Below, one piece after another: positions 14,972 to 28,482 of a DNA stretch of 44,694 nt (position 1 is the stretch's first letter; every line of letters starts with the position of its first letter). The stretch comes from Candidatus Gastranaerophilales bacterium (lineage in GTDB: Bacteria; Cyanobacteriota; Vampirovibrionia; Gastranaerophilales; Gastranaerophilaceae), in contig CALVEO010000011.1 in NCBI GenBank assembly GCA_944326615.1, forward strand, positions 1 to 44,694, given 5' to 3'. Under the pieces are notes generated by a model. The model made no database searches, was not told the DNA's origin, and worked only from the letters and a program-made list of their open reading frames with translations. Both the position numbers and the translations under genes were made by a program.

Positions 14972-15005
14972 AATTATGTTGTTTAATTTTAGAAAGGAGA
15001 CTTAT

Positions 15006-16136
15006 ATGAGAAATTTACATTATTATGAAGCTTCGGGGGGGGGGGCATTTCTAGCTGACGGAGATCAAGAAGCCCGGAAGTCAGGCATTTTAAAGATACT
15101 AGGATACTATGGCAGTAAGGCAATAGTAAGTATTGTAAAATTTTTCCCTCTCTTGGGAGATGGATTTATCAGAGGGCAGGAAGCTCGGAAGTCAAGAGGG
15201 CAAGCCAGTTTAGAAGGTAGGAATGTAAGAAGATATGAGGGTAGGCCGTTTACATTAAAAGGCTTATTTCCCAATTGTCAAAGTCTACCTTCTTGTTTTG
15301 ATATAACAAGTTCATGCAAGACACAAATGGCGGCTGGAACGGCTACACTGCCTATTGTAGCCCTCTTTGACGACATTCGTCAAGCCACGTTTAATTTGGT
15401 GAAAGGTAATATGCACGTAGCCACCTACAACAATATCCGTCGAGCTGCATTCACTTTGGCAGAGGTCTTGATTACCTTAGGAATTATAGGTGTGGTAGCT
15501 GCAATGACGATGCCGTCATTAATTCAGGAACACAGAGAAAAGGCTACTGTTGCGAAATTAAAAAAGGTTTATTCAAATCTTAATAATGCTTTTATATTAA
15601 GTATTAGTGAATACGGCAGTGTTAACGACTGGGGAATAACATCAGCTGAGATAGATAATAAAGGTTCTGATTTAATTGCAAGACGCCTGAAAGAATTTAT
15701 GATATCTGCAAAAGACTGCAATTCTGACGGCGGATGCTTTGGAGAAGATACTTATAAAACTCTCGGTCCAGTATCTGAAAGATTTTCCGGCGCAGCAAAC
15801 ACGTTTTCAACTTTTATTTTGGCAGACGGAACATCCATAGGTATCTGGGGAGTAGGTTCAATAAATAAGTATGGCATGATTATAGTCGATATAAACGGCA
15901 AACAAAGACCCAACACAACAGGTAAAGATGCATTCTGGTTTAAAATTACCGAAAATTCAATAGTTCCCCTGGGACTTAAAGGAGAAACAGAGGCTTATAA
16001 TTTCGAAAACTGTATAAATCCTGTCAGCGCATATTACACATCACGCGGCTGCACCGCCTGGGTTATATTTAATGAAAATATGGACTATCTGCATTGCAAG
16101 GATTTGAGCTGGGAGGGTAAAACAAGATGTAAATAA
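15006..16136 (+). CDS. Prepilin with 148-residue repeat-built leader and G11 tract (in frame)
   Basis: A 376-residue protein starting at an ATG with AAAGGAG at the right spacing. The prepilin motif AAFTLAEVLITLGIIGVVAA begins only near residue 147, so the nominal leader is about 148 residues instead of the usual 5-30. That leader holds a G11 tract (codons 10-14), two QEARKS segments, an EGRxxRRYEGR repeat, a CKTQ.AAGTATLP repeat and a 60-bp unit (FNLVKGNMHVATYNNIRRAA). The mature part ends GCTAWVIFNENMDYLHC...TRCK, nearly the same as the prepilin at 27371. With G10 or G12 the frame stops within five codons. An internal ATG at 15411 would give a 13-residue leader and is a real alternative start. 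Confidence 0.8.
   Translation: MRNLHYYEASGGGAFLADGDQEARKSGILKILGYYGSKAIVSIVKFFPLLGDGFIRGQEARKSRGQASLEGRNVRRYEGRPFTLKGLFPNCQSLPSCFDITSSCKTQMAAGTATLPIVALFDDIRQATFNLVKGNMHVATYNNIRRAAFTLAEVLITLGIIGVVAAMTMPSLIQEHREKATVAKLKKVYSNLNNAFILSISEYGSVNDWGITSAEIDNKGSDLIARRLKEFMISAKDCNSDGGCFGEDTYKTLGPVSERFSGAANTFSTFILADGTSIGIWGVGSINKYGMIIVDINGKQRPNTTGKDAFWFKITENSIVPLGLKGETEAYNFENCINPVSAYYTSRGCTAWVIFNENMDYLHCKDLSWEGKTRCK
15035..15045 (+). repeat. G11 homopolymer in prepilin leader
   Basis: Eleven G in a row, ten codons after the start. With 11 the gene reads TCG GGG GGG GGG GCA and stays open. With 10 it meets TAG, and with 12 it meets TGA, within a few codons. Confidence 0.9.
15209..15247 (+). repeat. EGR-RRYEGR dispersed repeat, copy 1
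   Basis: TTTAGAAGGTAGGAATGTAA onward, translated here as LEGRNVRRYEGR. Other copies lie at 25958-25998 and 28211-28270 on the minus strand. Confidence 0.75.
15390..15449 (+). repeat. 60-bp leader unit (single copy)
   Basis: Encodes FNLVKGNMHVATYNNIRRAA directly before the FTLAE motif. It matches the 60-bp units repeated three times at 22148-22327 (consensus F-x-x-V/A-K-x-x-x-H-V-x-x-S-D-N-I-R-x-x-A). Confidence 0.75.
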
Positions 16137-16140
16137 GCAA

Positions 16141-16177
16141 AAAAATGCAATTACCCATTCAGGTAATTGCATTTTTT
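16141..16177 (+). terminator. Terminator of the long-leader prepilin gene
   Basis: AAAAAATGCAATTACC and GGTAATTGCATTTTTT make a 16-bp stem around CATTCA, starting 4 bases after the stop. Confidence 0.9.
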
Positions 16178-16313
16178 GGATAAAACATGTAATATTTTTA
16201 TGTCTATACTGTATCCAAAATAATTAACAAAAATTTACATCATATATTTTCAGGCAGGACGCAAATTTCGATGATTTCTGATTTTTATGCCACTAGAAAA
16301 GTTTGTCAATATA

Positions 16314-16322
16314 TGTTATAAT
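16314..16322 (+). promoter_or_regulatory. Extended -10 element
   Basis: TGtTATAAT upstream of the 53-residue ORF at 16375, with no good -35. The 16178-16313 stretch before it holds no gene that I can see. Confidence 0.45.
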
Positions 16323-16374
16323 TTTAACATGAATTATATATGGGGTAACTAAAAAAACAAAAAGGAGTAGGTCT

Positions 16375-16536
16375 ATGACGGTGTTAGCTTCTAAAACAAC
16401 AAAAACTAAAACAACTAAATCTAAATTCAATGATGAATTTGAAAATTACTTGAAAAATCAATGCCTGAAAACAACATTCAATGGTATTGAAGTAGAAACA
16501 TTCTCTTGGTATAAAAAAGTTTTGGGCTTGGTATAA
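16375..16536 (+). CDS. Small unknown protein, 53 residues
   Basis: ATG with AAAGGAGTAGG just upstream, an extended -10 promoter about 55 bases before the start, and a terminator after the stop: a complete small gene. The product begins with a Lys/Thr-rich run (SKTTKTKTTKSKFNDEFENY) and ends FSWYKKVLGLV. No signal peptide or membrane segment. The basic Thr/Lys-rich N-terminus could bind nucleic acid, but I do not recognise the family. Confidence 0.6.
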   Translation: MTVLASKTTKTKTTKSKFNDEFENYLKNQCLKTTFNGIEVETFSWYKKVLGLV

Positions 16537-16583
16537 AACATCTAAAACAGGATATTTAAGAGATACAAACAGAACTCCTATTG

Positions 16584-16617
16584 AAAAGCCAATATTAATA
16601 TTTTAAATTGGCTTTTT
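16584..16617 (+). terminator. Terminator of the 53-residue ORF
   Basis: AAAAGCCAAT and ATTGGCTTTTTT stem with an A/T loop, followed by C and T-rich sequence. Confidence 0.75.
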
Positions 16618-16643
16618 TCTGCTGTTTATAGTAATATAATTTT

Positions 16644-17423
16644 ATGAAAATTATCGGCCCAATAATTGAAAATTTTAAAAACATACCGGAAGTTAAAGCA
16701 ATAGCTCTTTCAGGCTCAAGAACAGCTAAAAGTTCGGATGAAACTTCCGATTACGATGTTTACATATATTCTGACAAAGATATTGATACAAACAAAAGAA
16801 CAGAAATAGCAAAAAAATATGCTGACAAATATGAAATTGACAATAGGTTTTTCGGTTCCGGTGATGAATGGATTTTAAAAAATTCTGATATACAATTTGA
16901 TGTTATGTATCGTTCAAGAGAATGGATGGAAAACAGCATTGAAAATACGTGGGTAAAACATTACCCTTCAATAGGTTATTCAACCTGCTTTGTTTTCAAT
17001 GTAAAAAATTCAAAATCCCTTTATGATCCACAAGGATGGTATAAAAATTTACAAAATAAAGTAAGCGGGGAATATCCTGAACAATTATCAAAAAACATTA
17101 TAAATAATAATCTGCCTTTGCTCAAAAATAAAATCTCAGCATCGTTTTATGAACAAGTACAAAAAGCTTTGCAAAGAAAAGATTACGTCAGTCTTAATCA
17201 TAGAATAGCAGCTTTCATTGCCAGCTATTTTGATGTTTTGTTTGCGGCAAATAAAGTATTGCATCCTGGGGAAAAAAGACTAGTTCAATATACAAAGCTA
17301 CATTGCAAAAAAATACCGGAAAACTTTGAAGCTGATATTACCAGCATAACAAAAGAACCCATGAAAAATACATTAGAAACTTTATCCCGCTTAAACAGTA
17401 ATCTTATGAAAATTATGAAATAG
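16644..17423 (+). CDS. Nucleotidyltransferase-fold protein (DUF4037-like)
   Basis: A 259-residue protein with the polymerase-beta nucleotidyltransferase signature: LSGSRTAKSSDETSDYDVYIY at residues about 22-42 (Gly-Ser, then Asp-x-Asp) and a third acidic residue in IQFDVMYR near 90. The C-terminal half is helical and ends LSRLNSNLMKIMK. Such proteins transfer nucleotides to antibiotics, proteins or RNA; the substrate cannot be told here. TATAAT lies only 3 bases before the ATG and there is no ribosome site. The stop overlaps the convergent TPR gene by 11 bases. DUF4037 is a tentative family guess. Confidence 0.7.
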   Translation: MKIIGPIIENFKNIPEVKAIALSGSRTAKSSDETSDYDVYIYSDKDIDTNKRTEIAKKYADKYEIDNRFFGSGDEWILKNSDIQFDVMYRSREWMENSIENTWVKHYPSIGYSTCFVFNVKNSKSLYDPQGWYKNLQNKVSGEYPEQLSKNIINNNLPLLKNKISASFYEQVQKALQRKDYVSLNHRIAAFIASYFDVLFAANKVLHPGEKRLVQYTKLHCKKIPENFEADITSITKEPMKNTLETLSRLNSNLMKIMK

Positions 17424-19170
17424 CTCTTATCATTTCCTGAGCTTCCTCGCATTCGGGAAATGTGTCTACAATTTTATCAAGAACAGAAAGTGCAGAATCT
17501 TTATCGCCTAATTTTTCATAACAATGAGCACTATTTAAAAGAAGATTAACATTAAGCGGATTTTTATCAAGCAAGTGTTTAAAAATTCCGTTTGCCTGCT
17601 CAAAGTCCCCGAGTTCATAATAACATAGGCCGAGCATATGTTCACAGTCATAAGTTTTTTCAAGTTCATAAGATTTCACAAAATACATTTTTGCATCATC
17701 ATACATCTTTTGAAGAAATCTCACTTTTCCTGCAATAAAATGCATAAAACTGTTATTTAAATCATGCTCTATTGCATGCGTGATTTGTTCATACGCCTTA
17801 TCAAGTTCGTTTAAATGAATTTTATTCAATGCGGAAAATCCCAGTGCATCGGCATCATGGGGATTAATTGCAATAGCTTTTTGATAATATTCATCAGCCT
17901 TTACGAAATCTGTGGTTGAATGCAGATAATTTGCATATTCAAACAATATATCAAAGTCTTCAGGAGCAATACTTAATGCCTTATTAAATTCATCTTCCGC
18001 ATAATCAAACAGTCTTTTACTTAAATACAAAACTCCCAAATCTTTATGGGCCTGAGCAAATTCAGGATTAAGCTCTACTACTTTTTTCAATATCTTTTCT
18101 GCTTTATCCATATCATCTGTTTTTACACATAGATGAGCAAATTCATAATAAATTTCAGGAGAAACATTACCTTGAATAAGAATTTTTTCATAAAGCATTT
18201 TTGCATTTGCATACTGATGAATTTTGACATAAATACCAGCAAGTTTTCTTAGCATAGAAACTGATTTAGGATTTAAAAGAACAAGCTGTGCAAGAATTGT
18301 AATTGCACTTGCATAATCTCCTGAAGCATCATAACAGCATGCAAGGTTATATTGAAAATTAGGTTTACCCGGATGATGAGATACAAGAATTTTATAATGT
18401 TTTATAGCCTCTTCAAGCTGATTTGATTTAACTTCGGAAAGTGCAAGAGCTACAAGGTAACTATCCTGATTTTCTATTGCGTAAGCTTTTCTAAAAAATT
18501 CACAGGCTTCTTTGTGTTTATTTTGAAGCTGTAAAACAGAGCCTATATTAAAATAGGTTATTGAATTTTCAGGATCAAGACGGCTTGCTTCCATAAAATT
18601 AAGATAAGCTTTATCAAGATTTCCTATAGTAACATAACAAGTACCGAGATTGTTATAAAGCTGAGAATGCTCCGGATTAAGCTCCAATGCTTTTTCCAAA
18701 AATTCAACAGCCTTTTCAAAGTTTTTTAATGCCATACAGGCAGTTCCGGCAATGTAATAAACTGTATAATCATCTTTTACATATTCAAGAGATTTTATTA
18801 CTGTATCAACTGCTTTTTGCGGTTCTTTATTTTTAACATAGACAATTGCAAGATTTTTATACGCATCTACATAGCTGCTTCTCAGTCTCAAAACCTCTTC
18901 ATAAGATGCAATTGCATGGATATAATCATCTTGATTATCATAACAGTTAGCAAGATAAAACCAGCTTGCAGCATCATCTTTATACTTTACAACAGTTTCA
19001 AAAACAGCCTGTCCTTCTTTAAATTCATTTAGATTAACATGGCACAGCCCCAAAAGTTTTAATGCCTCAACATCTTTTTCATCATCACGAATAATAGTTT
19101 GCAATTCTTTTTTAGCTTCTTCGTACTTTTTAGAATTAATAAGTTTGTTTATTGTATCCAGATTTTCCAT
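17413..19170 (-). CDS. Large tetratricopeptide-repeat protein
   Basis: A 585-residue protein made almost wholly of TPR units (about 16-17 of 34 residues), for example EEAKKELQTIIRDDEKDVEA, AVEFLEKALELNPEHSQLYN and ANGIFKHLLDKNPLNVNLLL. No signal peptide, membrane segment or catalytic domain is seen, so it is probably a cytoplasmic scaffold for protein contacts. The ATG at 19170 is preceded by TATAAT with 6 bases between, and no ribosome site; a TTG at 19188 is in frame but would lie upstream of the predicted transcript start. Confidence 0.85.
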   Translation of the reverse strand: MENLDTINKLINSKKYEEAKKELQTIIRDDEKDVEALKLLGLCHVNLNEFKEGQAVFETVVKYKDDAASWFYLANCYDNQDDYIHAIASYEEVLRLRSSYVDAYKNLAIVYVKNKEPQKAVDTVIKSLEYVKDDYTVYYIAGTACMALKNFEKAVEFLEKALELNPEHSQLYNNLGTCYVTIGNLDKAYLNFMEASRLDPENSITYFNIGSVLQLQNKHKEACEFFRKAYAIENQDSYLVALALSEVKSNQLEEAIKHYKILVSHHPGKPNFQYNLACCYDASGDYASAITILAQLVLLNPKSVSMLRKLAGIYVKIHQYANAKMLYEKILIQGNVSPEIYYEFAHLCVKTDDMDKAEKILKKVVELNPEFAQAHKDLGVLYLSKRLFDYAEDEFNKALSIAPEDFDILFEYANYLHSTTDFVKADEYYQKAIAINPHDADALGFSALNKIHLNELDKAYEQITHAIEHDLNNSFMHFIAGKVRFLQKMYDDAKMYFVKSYELEKTYDCEHMLGLCYYELGDFEQANGIFKHLLDKNPLNVNLLLNSAHCYEKLGDKDSALSVLDKIVDTFPECEEAQEMIRAIS

Positions 19171-19176
19171 AATATT

Positions 19177-19182
19177 ATTATA
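19177..19182 (-). promoter_or_regulatory. -10 box of the TPR gene, leaderless geometry
   Basis: Minus-strand TATAAT, six bases (AATATT), then ATG at 19170. Confidence 0.45.
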
Positions 19183-19199
19183 ACTCAAACAAAACTTAC

Positions 19200-19229
19200 T
19201 TTACAGATTTTCAAAACACGTGGTATAAT
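19200..19229 (+). promoter_or_regulatory. Promoter of the unknown gene at 19286
   Basis: TTTACA (19200-19205), an 18-base spacer, then TGG and TATAAT (19224-19229), an extended -10. Confidence 0.65.
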
Positions 19230-19285
19230 ATTATATCAACGCCTTAAAAATTTTTCATTAAATTTTTGTCCGGAAAGGAACAAAA

Positions 19286-19984
19286 ATGGGAAAATCTTCT
19301 AAATACCCTTCTTACTCATCAGGTACAATCAAAGTTAACGGTTCGACAAAAGCTAACACCTACAAACAAGGGAACAATGTAATCACAAACTACAATATGT
19401 CTGATGATGAAAAGAGAGCTTATGATTATGCACAAAAATCATTTGCGGATTCGCTTGCGTCGGTAAATGTTTTTGATGACGACACAAAGAAAAATTTACA
19501 ATCGCAGCTTGAAGCTTACACATTAAACGGACAAAAACTTATCAATAATATGTATGAGCCTATGCTTGACGATCTTAAAACAGATATTGCATCACGCTTC
19601 GGGAATTTTGACAACTCTGTGTTTATGGATAACCTAAATTCAATAGAAGCGAACCGCGCAGAATCCATCAATAATCTTGCACAGGATGTAATGGCAAAAC
19701 GGGACGAACTTATAAGCAATGAATTAGCTCAAAGATATACATATCTGGGATTTTTGCAGGATGTACAAAACCAGATGAACTCAAATATCCTTAACTATGC
19801 CTCGGCTTCTCAGGCAAACAGTGCATCAGGGAATGACTATAATGCCAGAGCTTATGCCGCAAATCAAGCCTCAGGCAGTACATTTGACAATTACGCCAAT
19901 CTTGCATCAGGCGCCCTTAGCATGATGGGACCTTATGGAATGGCTGCATCAGCAGCGTTGCAAATTGCAAAACAATATGTATAA
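19286..19984 (+). CDS. Unknown protein, 232 residues
   Basis: A monocistronic gene with its own promoter, a GGAAAGGAA ribosome site and a terminator. The N-terminus (MGKSSKYPSYSSGTIKVNG) is Ser/Gly/Lys rich, the middle is helical (about 40-160) and the C-terminal 70 residues are Ala/Ser/Gly rich, ending GPYGMAASAALQIAKQYV. No signal peptide. The low-complexity ends and helical core recall phage or surface structural proteins, but no phage gene is nearby and I assign no function. Confidence 0.65.
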   Translation: MGKSSKYPSYSSGTIKVNGSTKANTYKQGNNVITNYNMSDDEKRAYDYAQKSFADSLASVNVFDDDTKKNLQSQLEAYTLNGQKLINNMYEPMLDDLKTDIASRFGNFDNSVFMDNLNSIEANRAESINNLAQDVMAKRDELISNELAQRYTYLGFLQDVQNQMNSNILNYASASQANSASGNDYNARAYAANQASGSTFDNYANLASGALSMMGPYGMAASAALQIAKQYV

Positions 19985-19988
19985 GTAA

Positions 19989-20023
19989 TAAAAAGCGGAC
20001 TTTTAAAAAAGCCCGCTTTTTAA
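19989..20023 (+). terminator. Terminator
   Basis: AAAAAGCGGACTTTT and AAAAAGCCCGCTTTTT form a long stem right after the stop at 19984. Confidence 0.85.
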
Positions 20024-20124
20024 TAATATTGCATTATACTATTTTTATTGCTATAATTACAAACAGCGCCCGATACCTCCAATGTGTCTACAAAACTATC
20101 AGCGACAATAGGGCAAAGGTAGAT

Positions 20125-20247
20125 ATGAAACGAGAAGACATAAGAAAAGTCCTACGCGTTATAGGACTTCTTCTTAATTTAATTTCGAATATAGGATACG
20201 TCAAACGGGTTAAGTTTATATGGAGCTTAGCCCGCTTCCCTATATAA
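20125..20247 (+). CDS. Possible small protein, 40 residues
   Basis: ATG with AAAGG upstream; the product (MKREDIRKVLRVIGLLLNLI...) is basic with one hydrophobic helix at about residues 9-22. Two hairpins (20147-20169 and 20206-20234) lie inside it, so the segment may instead be a structured RNA. The evidence is weak for either reading. Confidence 0.3.
   Translation: MKREDIRKVLRVIGLLLNLISNIGYVKRVKFIWSLARFPI
20147..20234. other. Two hairpins between the unknown gene and mnmE
   Basis: AAGTCCTA and TAGGACTT (20147-20169), and CGGGTTAAG and CTTAGCCCG (20206-20234, one G-T pair). Neither has a long T run, so these are not obvious terminators. They could be part of a small RNA or a mobile palindrome. 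Confidence 0.4.
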
Positions 20248-20293
20248 AATAACATATTCTATTACAATTTTAAGTGTTAAAACATGTTTGCGT

Positions 20294-20299
20294 TATAAT
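20294..20299 (+). promoter_or_regulatory. -10 box of mnmE, leaderless geometry
   Basis: TATAAT, six bases (CAAACT), then ATG at 20306, with no ribosome site. Confidence 0.5.
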
Positions 20300-20305
20300 C
20301 AAACT

Positions 20306-21640
20306 ATGAACATCTTACAGGAATTTGATACAATAGCTGCAATTGCAACGCCTATCGGAACAGGAGGGGTTGGAGTTATCAGAATTTCCGGCGATAAAAG
20401 TTTTGAAATTATTGATAAAATTTACTCAAAACATAACCTTGAAGCAGGAAAAATTTCGCATGGCTGGATTAACGATGGCGATAAAAAAATTGATGAAGTC
20501 TTGCTTCTTCCTTTCAAAAATCCTAGAAGCTACACCGGTGAAGATGTAATTGAAATTCACTGTCATGGCGGAATTAATGTTGTAAGAAATATCCTTGAAG
20601 TTGTTTTAAAAAACGGCGCGCGTATGGCAGAACGCGGGGAATTTACAAAACGCGCATTCTTGAATAAAAAAATGGATTTGTCGCAGGCAGAAGCTGTTGC
20701 AGACCTAATCCATGCAAAAACAAGAGATTTTGCAAAACAATCTGCCAAAAATTTATCAGGAGTTCTAAGTTCAAAAATTAAAGAAATAAGAAAAGATATT
20801 TTTGATGTACTTTCTAAAATTATTGCAGGAATTGATTTCCCGGAAGACGTTGCAGAGCCTGAGTATGATTACATAATTTCTGAATTTGAAAAAGCTCTTG
20901 GAAAAATAGATAAAATTTTATCATGTGCCAATTCATCTAATATTATGCGTCAGGGGATAAAAATTGCGATTGTTGGCAAACCCAATGTCGGAAAATCATC
21001 ACTTTTCAATACATTACTGAATGTTGAACGTGCAATAGTAACGGATATTGCAGGCACAACACGTGATATTATAAAAGAAACTCTTGACTGGGATGTTGCA
21101 ATTACCTTGATTGATACGGCAGGAATTCGCGACAATGATGAAGTAGGTAAAGTTGAAGAAATCGGGATTGAATACTCCAAACAATCCGCTGATGAAGCTG
21201 ATCTTGTTTTGTTTTTATATGATGCGTCAAAGGGTATGAATGAAGATGACAAAGCAATTCTGGAACTTATAAAAGACAAAAATCATATTATAATTGCCAA
21301 TAAATCTGACCTTATCACAGAAAAACAAGAAGGAACCTTCTATCTTTCAACCAGAACAAAAGAAGGTCTTGAGGAGCTTAAAAACAAAATAAAAAAAATT
21401 TCTTACAATTTTTCACTTGAAGACACTGAATTTGTAACAAACAACCGCCAGCAGGACTGCCTTGAAAAGTGCAGAGAAAGCTTAATTCAGGCGCTTGAAG
21501 CTGCAAAAATTCATCAGCTTCAGGACTTGATTTCAATTGATTTGAAATCCGCACTGTTATTTTTAGACGAAATCACAGGCGAAGTAATAACTGATGAAAT
21601 TTTAAATAATATATTCGATCATTTCTGCATTGGCAAATAA
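20306..21640 (+). CDS. mnmE: tRNA modification GTPase MnmE
   Basis: A 444-residue protein that, with MnmG, modifies the wobble uridine of certain tRNAs. Visible: the N-terminal folate-binding domain (DTIAAIATPIGTGGVGVIRI, SYTGEDVIEIHCHGG), the helical domain, the G domain inserted within it (P-loop GKPNVGKSSL, IAGTTRD, DTAGIR, NKSDL) and the C-terminal FCIGK whose Cys is required for activity. Homology starts at MNILQEFDTIA, so the ATG at 20306 is chosen over an in-frame TTG at 20288. A leaderless message is likely. The convergent XRE gene ends 14 bases downstream. Confidence 0.97.
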   Translation: MNILQEFDTIAAIATPIGTGGVGVIRISGDKSFEIIDKIYSKHNLEAGKISHGWINDGDKKIDEVLLLPFKNPRSYTGEDVIEIHCHGGINVVRNILEVVLKNGARMAERGEFTKRAFLNKKMDLSQAEAVADLIHAKTRDFAKQSAKNLSGVLSSKIKEIRKDIFDVLSKIIAGIDFPEDVAEPEYDYIISEFEKALGKIDKILSCANSSNIMRQGIKIAIVGKPNVGKSSLFNTLLNVERAIVTDIAGTTRDIIKETLDWDVAITLIDTAGIRDNDEVGKVEEIGIEYSKQSADEADLVLFLYDASKGMNEDDKAILELIKDKNHIIIANKSDLITEKQEGTFYLSTRTKEGLEELKNKIKKISYNFSLEDTEFVTNNRQQDCLEKCRESLIQALEAAKIHQLQDLISIDLKSALLFLDEITGEVITDEILNNIFDHFCIGK

Positions 21641-21654
21641 AGCGTAAAAATATA

Positions 21655-21972
21655 TTATAAAACAAAATCTTCTATAAATAAGCGGATTTTTTCGAGCTTA
21701 CGGTTATCAAGTTTATTCAATTCTTTATTAATTTCTTCAATAATTTGTGAGTTTGTTTTGTCAGAATTATATCTGAATAAAAGATTTAATTCAATGTCAA
21801 GAGCATTAGCAATTTTTTCAAGAGAATTTAAGGTCGGAAAATTTCTGCCTGACTCAATGATGCTTATAGAATTAGGCTCCATACTTACAAGTTCTGCAAG
21901 TTGTTCCTGAGTCAAATTTTTAGCTTTTCTGAAATATTTTATTCTCTGCCCTAAAAGTTTTTTATGATTCAT
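21655..21972 (-). CDS. XRE-family transcriptional regulator
   Basis: A 105-residue protein with an N-terminal Cro/C1 helix-turn-helix (LGQRIKYFRKAKNLTQEQLA, then SMEPNSISIIESGRNFPTLNS) at about residues 5-60 and a charged helical tail likely used for dimer contacts. The frame is open 12 codons further, but MNHKKLLGQR fits the family start. TAAAAT lies 7 bases before this ATG, so it may also be leaderless. It resembles the regulator at 34299-34625 in size and layout. Its target is unknown; the prepilin locus diverges from it. Confidence 0.85.
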   Translation of the reverse strand: MNHKKLLGQRIKYFRKAKNLTQEQLAELVSMEPNSISIIESGRNFPTLNSLEKIANALDIELNLLFRYNSDKTNSQIIEEINKELNKLDNRKLEKIRLFIEDFVL

Positions 21973-21979
21973 AGTAATA

Positions 21980-21985
21980 ATTTTA
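21980..21985 (-). promoter_or_regulatory. -10 box of the XRE gene, leaderless geometry
   Basis: Minus-strand TAAAAT, then 7 bases, then the ATG at 21972. Confidence 0.35.
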
Positions 21986-22117
21986 CAATTTATTATATGT
22001 GTTTCCACTAAAATAAATTTATTATTTTATTAAAAAATATTAAATTGTTTCAATATATATGAATTTATTTTATAATTATCGGGTAAAAATATAATATAAA
22101 TTTATTGAGAGGGAGAC

Positions 22118-23003
22118 ATGATTAACAAACAAAATACAAAACAAACTTTCACTCCGGCTAAAGGTGCTACGCACGTAGTCATTTCCGACAATATTCGTAA
22201 AGAAGCGTTCACTTTGGTGAAAGGTGCTACGCACGTAGTCACTTCCGACAATATTCGTAAAAAAACTTTCAATCCGGCTAAAAATACTTCGCACGTAGCC
22301 ACTTCCGACAATATTCGCCAAGAAGCATTTACACTTGCCGAGGCCTTAATAACCTTAGGAATTATCGGTGTTGTGGCTGCACTAACTCTTCCTGTACTCT
22401 TTGTTAATCACAGAAAAACAGTTGTAGAAACCAGACTGGCAAAATTCTATAGCACAATGAATCAGGCAATATTACAAGCTGAAGTTGATTTAGGAGATAA
22501 AAGAGACTGGCCAGACATCGGAAAAGGTTATGAAGAAGATGAAGATGGCAACCCAGACAAATCTAAATCAATTCCGCTTGCTTGGTTTAACACTTATATG
22601 CGTCCTTATTTGAACCTTCTTAAAGTAAATATATCTTGGACGTGTCCTTGCCTATTTCCCTGATGGCAGCCTTGCTGCTATTAGTGGGTCTGCAATTATT
22701 TTTTATGTCGACGCAAAATATTACAGTGAATATGAAACAGAGAACGGCGGCTCAGTTCCGGATGAAATGAATTCAGGCACACAGTGTTTTCTTTTTGGCT
22801 TTTACCCGAACATAGAAAATGACAAGTTCCATTATAATAAAGGTGTAGAACCATATACACATGGCTGGGACGGCAAAAGAGAAAGTTTATTCACCGGAGA
22901 ATACGGATGCAAAAAAGAAACAAACCGTACAAGACCTTACTGTACTAAACTAATTCAAATGAATGGTTGGAAAATTCCTAAGGACTATCCGCTGAGATTT
23001 TAA
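22118..23003 (+). pseudogene. Frameshifted prepilin with triple-repeat leader
   Basis: Starts at an ATG after GAGAGGGAGAC. A 70-residue leader made of three 60-bp units precedes EAFTLAEALITLGIIGVVAA, a typical prepilin motif (Glu +5). The first frame ends at 22663. From about 22632 a second frame reads YLGRVLAYFPDGSLAAISGS and runs on to 23003 (ending GWKIPKDYPLRF), as expected for the rest of the pilin domain. The break falls at AAATATATCTT; adding one AT there would restore K-V-N-I-Y-L-G-R. So this is one gene broken by a small indel, not two genes. A sequencing error cannot be excluded. Confidence 0.75.
22148..22327 (+). repeat. Three tandem 60-bp units in prepilin leader
   Basis: Units at 22148-22207, 22208-22267 and 22268-22327, most alike in the GCACGTAG(T/C)CA(C/T)TTCCGACAATATTCG part. 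Each encodes 20 residues (consensus FTLVKGATHVVTSDNIRKEA) and begins with FTP, FTL or FNP, a decoy of the FTLAE motif that follows directly at 22328. Confidence 0.9.
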
Positions 23004-23005
23004 TA

Positions 23006-23329
23006 TTAATACGAAAAATACCTGTCAAAATCAACATCATCAAAGCTGCAAAGCAGTTTGTAAACTTCATCATCCTCATCCATTCGCTGAAAACTGTAAT
23101 CATCAAATTTCCAGTATTTAGGATTAATTCCCTTTACTCTCACAATACCTGCATCACGCAGAATAACAAGTTTTTTCTTAACAATATCAACAGGAAGTTC
23201 TACCATTTTTGCAAGCTCCACTGCCGTTACCCAATTATCAACAGCACCTTTTTCAGGAGTCATAAACATCAGTTCAAGCCCGACTTTCTTCAAATCTTTA
23301 TCTTCTGTTTCGAGTTGATAATCGTACAT
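23006..23329 (-). CDS. Unknown protein with winged-helix-like domain
   Basis: A 107-residue protein. Residues about 30-75 (NWVTAVELAKMVELPVDIVK, then a 'LVILRDAGIVRVKG' strand-turn) look like a winged helix-turn-helix as in small DNA-binding or scaffold proteins. The C-terminus is very acidic (MDEDDEVY...DDVDFDRYFSY). It ends 2 bases from the end of the broken prepilin on the other strand and is upstream of hydF with an 80-base gap, so it may be co-transcribed with hydF. Function is not known. Confidence 0.65.
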   Translation of the reverse strand: MYDYQLETEDKDLKKVGLELMFMTPEKGAVDNWVTAVELAKMVELPVDIVKKKLVILRDAGIVRVKGINPKYWKFDDYSFQRMDEDDEVYKLLCSFDDVDFDRYFSY

Positions 23330-23412
23330 ACAAATATCCTACCGTAAAAATGTTTTTTCTCTATCATTCTTCTACATTATATATTACGGCAGAATGGAGC
23401 AAAAACTTTAAA

Positions 23413-24618
23413 TTATTTTGCAAATATCTTAACAGCTCTTGGCAAAATCCCGAGACAATAAGAGATTGCAACACCGTAATTCGTAATAGGAATACCTGCT
23501 TGGTTTGCAATTAATATACGTGATAAAACTTCCCTCCGGTTTGTCATACAGGCGCCGCAGTGGATTATAAGTTTGTAATCTTTAACATCCGGGAAATCAT
23601 GCCCTGCATAATTATGGATTACAAGATTTTTGCCGGTTCTTTTGCGAAGAAGATTAGGAATTTTTACTCTCCCGATATCATCTTCTATTGCATGGTGCGT
23701 GCAGCTTTCAAGAATTAAAACACAATCCCCGTCTTTCAAATTTTCAATTGCTGCGGCACCATTGACAAATTCATCCAAATCGCCCTTCAACCGCGCAAAA
23801 AGTATTGAAAAAGAGGTCAGTGGAATATTTTCAGGCACAATTTCACTAACTGTTTTGAATGCCTGACTATCTGTAATGACAAGAGCAGGAGGAGTTTTCA
23901 AATTTCCAAGCGCCTGTTTTAATTCGGTTTCTTTAACAACATAAGGCATACAATTGCTATCTAGCAAATCCCTTATAGTCTGAACCTGCGGCAGAATTAT
24001 TCTGCCTTTCGGGGCTTCTTTGTCTATTGGAATTACAAGAATAACGGTACTTTTTTCAGGCACAAGATCACCTGCAATCTTTGGAGAATTTACAAAATCA
24101 TCAGGCAAAAGTTTTACTAGCGCCTCCTTAAATTTGAAAACAATATCGTTATCTTGAATAACAGATGTCTTCAAAATCCGTCTGTCATCATTAACTATTT
24201 TGAAAATTTCATTATATTTCTCTTCTGTAAGCTTTTGTTCATCAATTTTATTTATAACTATTAAGTAAGGAATTTTGAGTTCTTCAAATTTCGCAATAAG
24301 TTCTTTTTCATAATTGCTTATCCCGTTATAATCACAAACAATTATTGCAACATCAATACGGTTAACAATTTTCATTGTTTTTTCAACACGTTTTTCACCT
24401 AGTTCTGTTTTATCGTCAAGTCCTGCTGTATCAAGAAAAGTTACAGGCCCGACAGGCAAAAGTTCCATTGATTTTTCAACAACATCAGTTGTCGTTCCTG
24501 CCACATCAGATACAATAGAAATTTCCTGATTTGTAACTCTGTTTAACAATGAAGATTTACCGGCATTTGTTCTGCCGAAAACTCCGATTTGCAAACGCAT
24601 TGATTTTAATGTTTTCAT
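23413..24618 (-). CDS. hydF: [FeFe]-hydrogenase H-cluster maturation GTPase HydF
   Basis: A 401-residue maturase that carries the 2Fe precursor and delivers it to apo-hydrogenase. N-terminal GTPase: P-loop GRTNAGKSS (15-23), DVAGTTTD, DTAGLDD, NKID. C-terminal cluster-binding residues: CTH at 306-308 and HCGAC at 353-357. GGAGG directly before the ATG at 24618 fixes the start; a GTG four codons earlier overlaps that site. Its substrates are presumably the two hydrogenases at 9738-14596. HydE and HydG are not in the window, so the maturation genes are scattered. Confidence 0.97.
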   Translation of the reverse strand: MKTLKSMRLQIGVFGRTNAGKSSLLNRVTNQEISIVSDVAGTTTDVVEKSMELLPVGPVTFLDTAGLDDKTELGEKRVEKTMKIVNRIDVAIIVCDYNGISNYEKELIAKFEELKIPYLIVINKIDEQKLTEEKYNEIFKIVNDDRRILKTSVIQDNDIVFKFKEALVKLLPDDFVNSPKIAGDLVPEKSTVILVIPIDKEAPKGRIILPQVQTIRDLLDSNCMPYVVKETELKQALGNLKTPPALVITDSQAFKTVSEIVPENIPLTSFSILFARLKGDLDEFVNGAAAIENLKDGDCVLILESCTHHAIEDDIGRVKIPNLLRKRTGKNLVIHNYAGHDFPDVKDYKLIIHCGACMTNRREVLSRILIANQAGIPITNYGVAISYCLGILPRAVKIFAK

Positions 24619-24627
24619 AAATTCCTC

Positions 24628-24664
24628 CACCGCTTGCGCGGTTCCTCTCCCTTTACAAGGGAGG
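24628..24664. repeat. Palindromic repeat upstream of hydF
   Basis: ACCGCTTGCGCGGT is a short palindrome and CCTCTCCCTTTACAAGGGAGG a second one beside it. They are of the same CTCTCC wording as other dispersed palindromes here, and lie within the leader region of hydF. Confidence 0.55.
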
Positions 24665-24743
24665 TTATTTTGAAATTGCCTTCGCCGCTGACGTGATACA
24701 AATCACCTTAATAAATTGAAGCAACGTTTATATAAAATATTAA

Positions 24744-24772
24744 AAAAGGCCGTCAGTAGACAGCCCTTCAGA
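24744..24772 (-). terminator. Terminator of rpsO
   Basis: Minus strand: AAGGGCTGTC, TACT, GACGGCCTTTTTT, a stem with a small bulge followed by a T run, downstream of rpsO. Confidence 0.8.
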
Positions 24773-24791
24773 ATTTTTCACAAGCTTTAAA

Positions 24792-25055
24792 TTAGCCTCT
24801 GATACCCAATTTCTTGATTAATTCTCTGTATTCATCAAGATTTTGAGATTTCAAATAAGAAAGTAGTCTTTTTCTTTTACCTACCATCATCAAAAGACCT
24901 CTTTTAGTTGCAAAATCTTTTTGATTAGATTTAAGGTGTTCGGTAAGTTCTGTAATCTTCTGGCTCATCATAGCAACCTGAACGGCTGTTGAACCTGTAT
25001 CTTTTTCATTTTTACCGTATTTTTTGACTATTTCCTGTTTGTTTTTTAAATTCAT
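24792..25055 (-). CDS. rpsO: 30S ribosomal protein S15
   Basis: An 87-residue primary 16S rRNA-binding protein of normal length. Conserved signatures are GSTAVQVAMMSQKITELTEH (about 21-40), the rRNA-contacting KDFATKRGLLMMVGKRKRLL and the C-terminal YLKSQNLDEYRELIKKLGIR. AAAGGA precedes the ATG. It is a single-gene unit with its own terminator. Confidence 0.97.
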   Translation of the reverse strand: MNLKNKQEIVKKYGKNEKDTGSTAVQVAMMSQKITELTEHLKSNQKDFATKRGLLMMVGKRKRLLSYLKSQNLDEYRELIKKLGIRG

Positions 25056-25151
25056 AATAATTTTCCTTTACTTGTTGAGTGATTATTGGCGTAAGCACTC
25101 TACAAAATGCATGATAATATATAAAGGAAAAATTGCAAGCCAATTGTTACT

Positions 25152-25637
25152 TTACTTTAACAGTGTAGTTAAGAATGCTTTGAATGCAGAATTATTTGCA
25201 AAATTAAACTGATCTCTTGCGATACCTAGATTAACATCAGCACCAAAAAGTGATTTATTTGAAAGATTGTATTTTTTCAACGCATCAGAGTATTGAGAAG
25301 ACTCTTCACCATAAATACTTGTGGCATATTTCAAATTTTTTATGGCAGAGTCATTGCCTGACTTCATTGCCTCGTATTGGGCTAAAGCTGCATAATATTG
25401 TTCTTCAGCCTGTGCCTTTTTATTTTCTTTTTCTAAATAAAAGCCTTTTACGGAATCATCTATATTATTTTTTGTCTCTTCAGCATTCTGCATAGCTATT
25501 GCACGCGAGAAAGTAAATGCAGAACCGAGCTTTAATGCCTTATCAAAATAATCTTTATAAGACATAACATTTTTTAGCGGGCTGGAATTAAACTGTTGTT
25601 CTGTTAAAATTCCCTGTGTTTGATTAACTTTAGTCAT
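25152..25637 (-). CDS. Unknown protein, 161 residues
   Basis: Helical, Lys/Glu/Ala/Asn-rich, no signal peptide or membrane segment. The N-terminus is MTKVNQTQGILTEQQFNSSP; a central Glu/Ala/Gln-rich helix (about 65-95) may be a coiled coil; the C-terminus is FNFANNSAFKAFLTTLLK. I do not recognise the family. Its upstream region shares blocks (CTCTTAATTATATA, ATAAAGTATAT, TTGTTAAGTxTTGTAA) with that of the Gly-rich gene at 5704-6153, suggesting common regulation. Confidence 0.65.
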   Translation of the reverse strand: MTKVNQTQGILTEQQFNSSPLKNVMSYKDYFDKALKLGSAFTFSRAIAMQNAEETKNNIDDSVKGFYLEKENKKAQAEEQYYAALAQYEAMKSGNDSAIKNLKYATSIYGEESSQYSDALKKYNLSNKSLFGADVNLGIARDQFNFANNSAFKAFLTTLLK

Positions 25638-25742
25638 AGCAAGCCTCTGTTTTTTTATACTCTTAATTATATAAAGTATATATACCCCAAATAATTGCCT
25701 TTTTTGTTAAGTTTTGTAAAACATAATGTATATTATAGCAGG

Positions 25743-25782
25743 AAGTGAATAAGTGAATGGGTTAATAAGAGAATAAGTCTTT
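25743..25782 (+). repeat. GTGAATA dispersed repeat, copy 1
   Basis: AAGTGAATAAGTGAATGGGT followed by TAATAAGAGAATAAGTCTTT. It closely matches 34637-34679. Confidence 0.7.
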
Positions 25783-25957
25783 ACAGTGCCGTAAAAAACA
25801 GTTTCCTTCCCTGAATAGAGAAGGTTAGGATGGGGTGCAATCCGGAAGAACAGAGGAACATATGTCAAGAAGTCAGACTTATTACAGAAATTATTTTTGT
25901 GCACAGCTCCGATAATAGCTTGTCCTCCTGACATCCGGTCCTCCGTCTGCCAAAGAG

Positions 25958-25998
25958 CCTACCCTCATATCTTCCTATCTTCTTACCTTCTAAATAAA
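25958..25998 (-). repeat. EGR-RRYEGR dispersed repeat, copy 2
   Basis: On the minus strand it reads TTTAGAAGGTAAGAAGATAG and on to GATATGAGGGTAGG, matching the leader DNA of the prepilins at 15209 and 28211. Here it is intergenic. Confidence 0.75.
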
Positions 25999-26033
25999 CC
26001 CTCTCCCTTAATCCCTCTCCCAAGGAGAGGGGA
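25999..26033. repeat. CTCTCCC palindrome
   Basis: CCCTCTCCCTTAATCCCTCTCCC followed by AAGGAGAGGGGA. The inner arms CCCTCTCC and GGAGAGGG pair. It lies next to the EGR repeat. Confidence 0.65.
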
Positions 26034-26067
26034 AAATTCTCTTTCGATAATATTATGTTATTTGTGC

Positions 26068-26073
26068 TAAAAT
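26068..26073 (+). promoter_or_regulatory. -10 box of purB, leaderless geometry
   Basis: TGC followed by TAAAAT (extended -10), six bases (AAACTT), then ATG at 26080, without a ribosome site. Confidence 0.45.
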
Positions 26074-26079
26074 AAACTT

Positions 26080-27369
26080 ATGATTGAAAGATATTCACGT
26101 GAAGAAATGAAAAAAATCTGGGATTTGCAGTCTAAATTCCAATATTACCTTAATGTAGAAATCGCAGTTGCCGAGGCTTATGCCAAACTTGGAACATTTC
26201 CTGAAAAAGATATTGAAGAATTGAAAAAGAAAGCAAAATTCGATATAAAAAGAATTGATGAAATAGAGGCAGAAGTTAAACATGATGTAATAGCATTTTT
26301 AACCTGCGTTAATGAAAGTCTCGGAGATTTAGCAAAATACATGCACGTCGGAATGACGAGTTCTGATGTTATTGATACAGCTTTTGCGCTGCAAATTCAA
26401 GATAGCGGAAAGATTATCATCAAGGATCTTGACGAAACAATCCAATCAATGAAGGAATTAGCAGAAAAACACAAAAATACAATTTGTATCGGTCGTTCAC
26501 ATGGAGTTCATGCAGAAGTAATGACATTCGGGATAAAAATTTGTAATTGGATTGATATTCTTGAACGTCAGAGAGCAAATTTTATTCACGCACTGGATGA
26601 AATCAAAGTCGGGCAGATATCCGGTCCTGTCGGAACATATAGCAATATTCCGCCTGAAGTGGAAGAAATTACCTGCAAAAATTTAGGCTTAAGACCTGCA
26701 AGAATATCTACACAGATTATCGCAAGAGATTATCACGCATACTTTATGCAGTCTCTGGCACTGATTGCAAGCGTAATTGAGCAGTTTGCAACAGAAATCA
26801 GACATCTGCAAAGAACAGAAGTATTAGAGGTTGAAGAAGGTTTTGGCAAAAATCAAAAAGGGTCATCAGCAATGCCGCATAAAAAAAACCCTGTTTTATC
26901 TGAAAACTTATGCGGGCTTGCACGCGTTGTAAGAGCTAATTCACTTGTCGCACTGGAAAATATTCCGCTTTGGCATGAACGCGATATTTCTCACAGCTCC
27001 GCTGAACGCATAATTTTTCCTGACAGTTTAACTCTGGTTGACTTTATGCTCAACAGATTTAACAGTATTGTGCAAAATCTTGTTGTTCATGAAAAAAATA
27101 TGATTAAAAATACCGAAAAATTCGGCGGCATAGTTTTCTCGCAAAAAGTTCTTCTGAAACTTATTGAAAAAGGAATTACAAGAGAAGAAGCTTACCGTCT
27201 TGTTCAAAGAAACGCCATTGACGCCTTTGAAAATGACGGTAATTTTAGAGTTAATCTGCTGAACGACAAAGATGTTACAAAACTTCTCACGCCATTGGAA
27301 ATCGACGAAATTTTCAATAAAGAAGAATTTTTGAAAAACATAGACGAAATCTATAAACGGATTTTATAA
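26080..27369 (+). CDS. purB: Adenylosuccinate lyase
   Basis: A 429-residue enzyme that removes fumarate from SAICAR and adenylosuccinate in purine synthesis. Fumarase/aspartase-superfamily features: MIERYSREEMKKIWD at the start, the GMTSSDVIDTA motif near residue 91, RSHGVHAEVMTFG with the catalytic His, the signature SSAMPHKKNP near 268, and the C-terminal domain. Length is usual for the family. It has no ribosome site and is probably leaderless. Its stop is 1 base from the end of the convergent prepilin. Confidence 0.97.
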   Translation: MIERYSREEMKKIWDLQSKFQYYLNVEIAVAEAYAKLGTFPEKDIEELKKKAKFDIKRIDEIEAEVKHDVIAFLTCVNESLGDLAKYMHVGMTSSDVIDTAFALQIQDSGKIIIKDLDETIQSMKELAEKHKNTICIGRSHGVHAEVMTFGIKICNWIDILERQRANFIHALDEIKVGQISGPVGTYSNIPPEVEEITCKNLGLRPARISTQIIARDYHAYFMQSLALIASVIEQFATEIRHLQRTEVLEVEEGFGKNQKGSSAMPHKKNPVLSENLCGLARVVRANSLVALENIPLWHERDISHSSAERIIFPDSLTLVDFMLNRFNSIVQNLVVHEKNMIKNTEKFGGIVFSQKVLLKLIEKGITREEAYRLVQRNAIDAFENDGNFRVNLLNDKDVTKLLTPLEIDEIFNKEEFLKNIDEIYKRIL

Positions 27370-27370
27370 T

Positions 27371-28389
27371 TTATTTACATGTTTTTTTCCCTGTCCAGCT
27401 TAAATCATCACAATGAAGATAATCCATATTTTCATTTATTAAAACCCAGGCAGTACAGTTTATACCTCCATTGCCTTTTGGAATACAGCCAAGACTTTTC
27501 AAAGACTTGTCAGTTTTATCGTAACCGTATGGGACAACTTTATATTTTTTATAAAGGAATAAAAATAAATCTTTTCCAGAGGTATTAGGACCAGCTTTGC
27601 CATTAATATCAACCCATATTTCACCGTAATTTCTATTATCATCAGCAACAGAGTTAGCCCCATACCCTTCAATTGCGAGAAGAGTTCCATCAGCAAGAAC
27701 AAGTTTGTAATATCTGTTATTTAAATTTTCAAAATCCCGTTCCGCACTACCGGCCAAATTTTTATAACCGCCTGCAACAAAGCATCCTTTTGATTCATAT
27801 CCGCAGTCTTTTGCGATTTTTAATTGTTTTACGAGATTTTTGACGGCAAATCTTGTGATTGTATCTTCACTTTCTTCCTCATCTTCATACTGATATGAAT
27901 CCCATAAATCAGGAGTTCCATTTTCGTTAATAGCAGCAACTAATGCCTGAGACAGTGTACTGTATACTTTTTTCAAACGTGTAACAGTCACTTTTTCACG
28001 ATGCTTTTGAATTAAAGAAGGCATCGTCATAGCAGCGACAACCCCAATAATTCCTAAGGTAATCAACACCTCAGCCAGAGTGAACGCAGCGCGTTTTTTA
28101 AGTGAAGTGTGAAGAGTGAAACGTGAAGTGGATTTTTCTGCTTTCCTCCCCTGGGGGAGGGAATGAGGGAGAGGGTTATCAGAAGATAAGAGGGTAGGAG
28201 GAAAGGAAAATAAGCTTTTTACCGTAAATAGCCTACCCTCATACCTTCTTATCTTCCTACCTTCCAAATAAAATCTTGCTGCTTTAGTGCGGTAGTACCT
28301 TTGTATCTTTTTAAATTCTACAAAATCGCAAACCTTTGTTATCCCTGACTTTGCGGGGGGGGGGCGATTCTCAGCTCTTCTCTATTCAT
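27371..28389 (-). CDS. Prepilin with long leader, currently out of frame at a C10 tract
   Basis: The ATG at 28389 has a perfect AGGAGG 7 bases upstream. Reading from it, MNREELRIAPPPQSQG ends at TAA because of a C10 tract. With C11 the frame passes through 41 codons into the open frame that begins EGRKIRRYEGRLFTVKSLF, reaches KKRAAFTLAEVLITLGIIG (leader about 102 residues) and ends at 27371. The mature part is paralogous to the prepilin at 15006, with a near-identical end (NCTAWVLINENMDYLHC...KKTCK). No ATG precedes the motif inside the pilin frame; a TTG at 28267 lacks a ribosome site. So expression appears off as sequenced, and one added C would switch it on. Confidence 0.8.
28144..28179. 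repeat. CTCTCCC palindrome within prepilin leader
   Basis: TCCTCCCCTGGGGGAGGGAA followed by TGAGGGAGAGGGTTATC. It is translated on the minus strand as DNPLPHSLPQGRK in the leader of the 28389 prepilin. Confidence 0.6.
28211..28270 (-). repeat. EGR-RRYEGR dispersed repeat, copy 3
   Basis: Minus-strand TTTGGAAGGTAGGAAGATAA and on to GAGGGTAGGCTATTTACGG, translated as EGRKIRRYEGRLFT. It matches 15209-15247 and extends further into the VKSLF/LKGLF part. Confidence 0.75.
28355..28364 (-). repeat. C10 homopolymer in prepilin leader
   Basis: Ten C on the coding strand, eight codons after the ATG. C10 gives a stop after 17 codons, C9 gives a stop further on, and only C11 (or C11 plus or minus 3n) joins start and pilin. 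Confidence 0.9.
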
Positions 28390-28482
28390 AATTTTGCCTC
28401 CTAAAAATTTTTCAAAACTATATTTGTATTATTTACGATTTTTTAACTTTTGTCAAGATTGTTATATCAGGATTTGAAAATT

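Follow-up and report, generated by a model that had tools for sequence, protein, structure and literature searches.

A prepilin gene one base out of frame carries a probable copy of a genus-wide phase-variation switch in Gastranaerophilales

Phase variation has mainly been described in pathogens. In the poly-G/poly-C phasomes of Campylobacter, Helicobacter and Neisseria, surface-related genes carry, close to the 5' end, a G/C homopolymer that is toggled by single-base slippage. Antigenic variation of pilE in Neisseria involves a guanine-rich element and silent pil copies, and homopolymers are also known to cause transcriptional slippage or -1 frameshifting, for example in dnaX. The prepilin tracts described here have the arrangement of the phasomes. 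However, they occur in one gene family with numerous loci (many genomes have about 50-170 tracts), their resting length is nearly always 10, they follow a single rule by which length 11 is the open state, they have conserved flanks and an arm-locked G orientation, and they belong to an uncultured cyanobacterial sister lineage that retains MutS1. With pilE they share the type IV pilin, the G-run near the pilin gene and a mosaic exchange between loci, here as swaps of pilin bodies between 5' cassettes. In difference to pilE, each copy has its own Shine-Dalgarno sequence and ATG, the G-run lies within the coding frame, no guanine-quadruplex motif like that of pilE was identified and recombination was seen between species only. 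With dnaX-type slippage they share the homopolymer and the constant one-base offset, but runs of G and of C both occur, near-identical orthologs vary in length and the orientation is determined at the level of the DNA. A search of a literature library for pilin phase variation in Gastranaerophilales, Melainabacteria or Vampirovibrionia returned no report, and to our knowledge the repertoire is among the largest of homopolymer tracts for a 2 Mb genome.

The window, a stretch of 44,694 nucleotides of a Gastranaerophilales metagenome-assembled genome (MAG), holds the prepilin genes A and B (Table 1). In gene B the C10 tract is located 25 nt (eight codons) past the ATG at 28389. For this start the first-pass annotation had noted a perfect AGGAGG and 17 codons to a TAA, and both were borne out, the 17 codons being 16 residues and the stop. 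The prepilin frame has no stop between 28381 and the terminal stop at 27371 and is shifted by +1 base against the ATG frame (305 nt from the ATG to FTLAEV, remainder 2). One added base therefore opens the prepilin, as had been claimed; however, 102 residues precede FTLAEV in the computed C11 version of 339 aa, and not the 41 codons given earlier. Runs of this length are not a product of chance, as C8 words were found 7 times in the window where 0.08 were expected.

Table 1. Coordinates of the features of prepilin genes A and B in the window.
Feature	Positions	Strand	Remarks
Prepilin gene A	15006-16136	+	start ATG 15006; open as sequenced
G11 tract of gene A	15035-15045	+	followed by CATTTCTAGCT; in frame
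Leader of gene A, tract to FTLAEV	15046-15449	+	404 nt
Mature prepilin body B	27371-28084	-	N_methyl (PF07963) and predicted pilin-like fold
Long leader 3' of the C10 tract	28085-28354	-	90 codons; prepilin frame open; repeat mosaic common to other loci
Short frame as sequenced	28339-28389	-	MNREELRIAPPPQSQG-stop; 16 residues, then TAA
Oriented element, G orientation	28350-28376	+	TTTGC-G10-CGATTCTCAGCT; fits the genus consensus YC-G10-C[AG]NTY; here G at -2; AGCT close by
C10 tract	28355-28364	-	C10 on the coding strand, G10 on +; 1 base below the open length
Shine-Dalgarno AGGAGG	28397-28402	-	7 nt spacing to ATG 28389
Promoter-like TTGACA-17-AATAAT	28428-28456	-	kept in sister C-type cassettes

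Body B matches both PF07963 and TIGR02532 over the cut-off, and the N-terminal cleavage/methylation motif is present. Prepilin peptidase would have to remove a leader of 102 residues from the open-state product. The AF2 model of the mature pilin (pLDDT 85) shows a helix at 10-62 and beta strands, and a Foldseek search of this model against the PDB gave no significant match. In structure comparisons the alignments with full-length pilins begin at chain residue 1 (Z 3.6-4.5), but unrelated folds score equally, and such Z values are too low to establish the fold. The assignment as a putative prepilin rests on the N-terminal motif, and the likeness to solved pilins is weak.

The tract of gene A is in frame at 11 and obeys the same logic, with 11 as the open length, just as the annotation had it. 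However, it is not the same C tract, as the coding strand of gene A carries G11. The tracts of genes A and B are complementary in coding sense, with G on the + strand of the window in both, and this difference is informative because the tracts are oriented with the chromosome arm and independently of the gene (see below). The picture of one prepilin ON and one OFF proved too modest, since nearly all loci have length 10 and are one base short.

In the source genome (1.96 Mb) 108 N_methyl prepilin matches and 74 G/C runs of at least 9 were found, 64 of the runs being exactly 10 long, five 9 and five 11. A tract lies upstream of 48 of the 108 matches, with G on the coding strand in 30 and C in 18. 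Ten further tracts belong to prepilin 5' ends truncated at contig or locus ends, giving about 48-58 tract-bearing prepilins in total. The tract-free prepilins with a readable start mostly have ordinary short leaders. The 33 genomes of the genus contain 2,019 runs of at least 9 (1,621 of exactly 10, 150 of exactly 11), and length 10 makes up about 80-90% of the tracts. Many of these genomes carry about 50-170 tracts, compared with 0-6 runs of at least 9 per genome in other families of the order.

All tract lengths, in all genomes, are those of the assembly consensus. Since errors are common in homopolymers and the loci share a uniform offset, the tracts might in truth be 11 long and the genes constitutively on. 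We regard such an assembly or sequencing error as very improbable, because length 10 recurs across MAGs that, to judge by their contig names (NODE, k127/k141, idba), came from different assemblers, lengths of 11, 9 and 12 are called as well, and an error would lock neither the orientation nor the flanks of the tracts. Stretches of 49-65 C lie near contig starts, immediately 5' of prepilins, in three loci (L047, L067, L110), and these are probably assembly artefacts.

Some tracts depart from the common arrangement. A second prepilin class (FTLAEMMVVMLI) at L131, L168 and L203 carries the same G10 element and is open at 10, as if ON by default. C-flanked runs of 9-10 G that have no prepilin nearby were seen in the source genome at L143:2493, L161:2538 and 8182, L165:2179 and L133:2500. 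In other Gastranaerophilales MAGs (L042, L044, L046, L048, L050, L083) the prepilin tracts are 11-12 long and mostly one base too long; they lack the conserved flanks and form a related switch that obeys another rule.

Among the framed loci of the genus (prepilin-linked, with C-flanked tracts) 257 of 269 follow the rule that 11 is the open length: 234 of these have 10 bases and lack one, 13 have 11 and are open, 9 have 9 and lack two, and 1 has 12. The remaining 12 use another frame. In a follow-up set of 30 loci, fetched later for a length of exactly 11, 14 were prepilin-linked with C on both sides, gene A among them, and 13 of these are open. The open state is found in about 5-7% of the loci in the assemblies. 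The rule is kept in all three residue classes of the ATG-tract distance, and in G-type and C-type genes alike, so that it was probably re-established many times over.

Only 5 loci would be open at 9 or 12, against the 257 open at 11, although tracts of 9 are about as numerous as tracts of 11 in the framed set. Per-division tract-change rates for Campylobacter jejuni are tabulated in PMC8224891; by our own arithmetic, these rates lead to a broad spread over 8-10, compared with the tight 10 observed here. Slippage alone does not explain this tight length, nor the near-absence of loci open at 9 or 12. Possibly, loci with an open length below the resting length would shrink and lock ON, so that the loci open at 11 are left.

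The first-pass annotation had named an invariant C10 together with a decaying pilin frame in relatives as evidence against a switch. Instead, 278 loci have an open pilin frame 3' of the tract and 5 a broken one, and both 10 and 11 occur. The leaders of the source genome (18,975 nt) contain no stop in the pilin frame, compared with 397 and 553 in the other two frames, a zero that arises partly by construction since the loci were selected for open leaders. Open stretches persist up to 917 nt. The median omega of the mature pilins is 0.44 and falls to 0.07 for orthologs between species, so that, as judged from substitution patterns, the pilins at OFF loci are under purifying selection. The 278 to 5 open frames and omega below 1 rule out that these are decaying pilins that have lost their function.

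On contigs of five genomes (own counts) 276 of 285 neighbouring tract pairs share the direction of the G strand, whereas the strands of neighbouring tract-bearing prepilin genes in the source genome agree in 8 cases and differ in 10. Tract orientation goes with the chromosome arm and not with the direction of the gene. Locally the GC skew follows the G orientation of the tracts with a mean of only +0.07, and we infer that the G-bearing strand is the leading strand. A general G-skew was rejected as the cause of the orientation, as the skew of shorter runs in the vicinity of the tracts is only mild (641 G4 to 532 C4, 98 G5 to 73 C5, 9 G6 to 4 C6); runs of 7-8 were not found in the tract surroundings.

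On the DNA side the element has the consensus YC-G10-C[AG]NTY. The run is preceded by C in 99-100% of cases (in the profile-test set, and only there, partly a selection effect, as its loci were required to have this C) and followed by C in 96-97%, then A/G, N, T and a pyrimidine. When a profile of G-type loci from other genomes was applied to C-type loci, it scored +6.2 bits on the DNA side and -18.5 on the gene side, with the DNA side ahead in 86 of 86. Together with its flanks the G10 run may be a dedicated, oriented slippage element coupled to replication, which would be held at 10 at the DNA level, would mainly take steps from 10 to 11, would keep one chromosomal orientation genus-wide and would leave few of the 50-170 pilins open per cell; we put this forward tentatively and with some doubt.

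The common flanks, the arm-locked orientation and the same frame offset in both orientations would also fit a fixed-length oriented mini-element that was inserted near the ATG and silenced the prepilins, slippage of the G-run being incidental. This is highly unlikely, as a search for an ortholog with an empty site found none and, unlike in silenced genes, the long open frames described above are retained under selection.

Tract lengths differ between near-identical sequences. An open G11 tract in the source genome (C40) has a G10 ortholog in genome G001, and an open C11 tract in G003 (C19) has a C10 ortholog in G001 (C3), each pair differing at one of about 400 flanking positions. In the systematic pairing of G001 and G003 a strict threshold gave one locus only, and therefore the search was broadened. 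Paralogs likewise vary in length: the C10 of the window is C9 in the 90% identical copy L126. For the window locus only this paralog, and no near-identical ortholog, was seen in the genomes compared. Loss of MutS as a source of hypermutability could be ruled out, as mutS1 is present; switching may therefore be slow.

The offset of +1 is uniform in 234 of the 241 loci of length 10, for every ATG-tract distance and in G as well as C runs, and the tracts hardly vary in length, as programmed frameshifting would require. This counts for slippage at the RNA level, in which the RNA polymerase adds a base or the ribosome shifts by -1 and some full pilin is made from unchanged DNA. However, RNA mechanisms should be indifferent to the chromosome arm, and the arm-locked orientation and the conservation of the flanks on the DNA side speak against them, as do the near-identical orthologs of different length and the lengths of 11-12 with the opposite offset in other lineages of the order. 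Length variation and arm-locked orientation argue against programmed slippage as the sole mechanism. We consider it unlikely but a serious rival, and it could add to DNA switching.

The tract of the window is probably a copy of a slipped-strand phase-variation switch that acts genus-wide on a large prepilin repertoire and is OFF by default. As in other SSR-type switches, the homopolymer lies in the 5' coding region after the Shine-Dalgarno sequence and the start, a change of one unit toggles between the truncated and the full frame, and in the two ortholog pairs the length differs in near-identical sequences. Each prepilin of the repertoire is preceded by an ATG, a few codons and the oriented G10 element. 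At length 10 translation would stop shortly past the tract (OFF), a gain of one base by slippage during replication would join the start to the leader and the pilin (11, ON), and the loss of one base would return the locus to OFF; the G orientation would reflect the direction of replication. With a resting length of 10 each pilin would be open in a few percent of genomes or cells, ON cells would expose the pilin, and a cell would display a small and shifting subset. Given the share of open loci in the assemblies, we infer that, of about 50 switches in a cell, a few would be open. Slipped-strand switching with 10 as resting and 11 as open length accounts for the anatomy, the kept frames, the polymorphism and the DNA-level orientation. 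The earlier proposal of a selected contingency system is well supported by the frame rule, the intact frames, omega below 1 and the two ortholog pairs, but the system is far larger than the two genes it was based on.

The pilin bodies themselves seem to be mobile. Body B lies behind a C-type cassette here; in G001 it occupies the site of gene A, where the cassette is of the G type. The C-type site in G001 and G003 carries another pilin, with homology ending 5 nt beyond the tract. From these comparisons it seems that the switch sites are fixed and oriented and that pilin bodies move from one to another. A rearrangement between species is visible at 14973-28084 of the window and in L362, L361 and L364: in G001, the gene A site holds body B together with its neighbour purB. 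The breakpoints are at prepilin 5' ends, one of them 5 nt past the tract. The leaders at 28002-28268 of the window and at about 45 other loci of the source genome form a repeat mosaic with a median of 470 nt, read in the pilin frame; those of G007 and G025 are short, with medians of 76 and 93 nt.

Most pilins of this kind would be misread by gene callers. The approximately 2,000 loci are a natural dataset for asking how slippage depends on the direction of replication and on the bases next to the tract; slippage is usually studied at single loci. If the tracts act as proposed, phase variation would be a dominant feature in a gut commensal sister group of the cyanobacteria.
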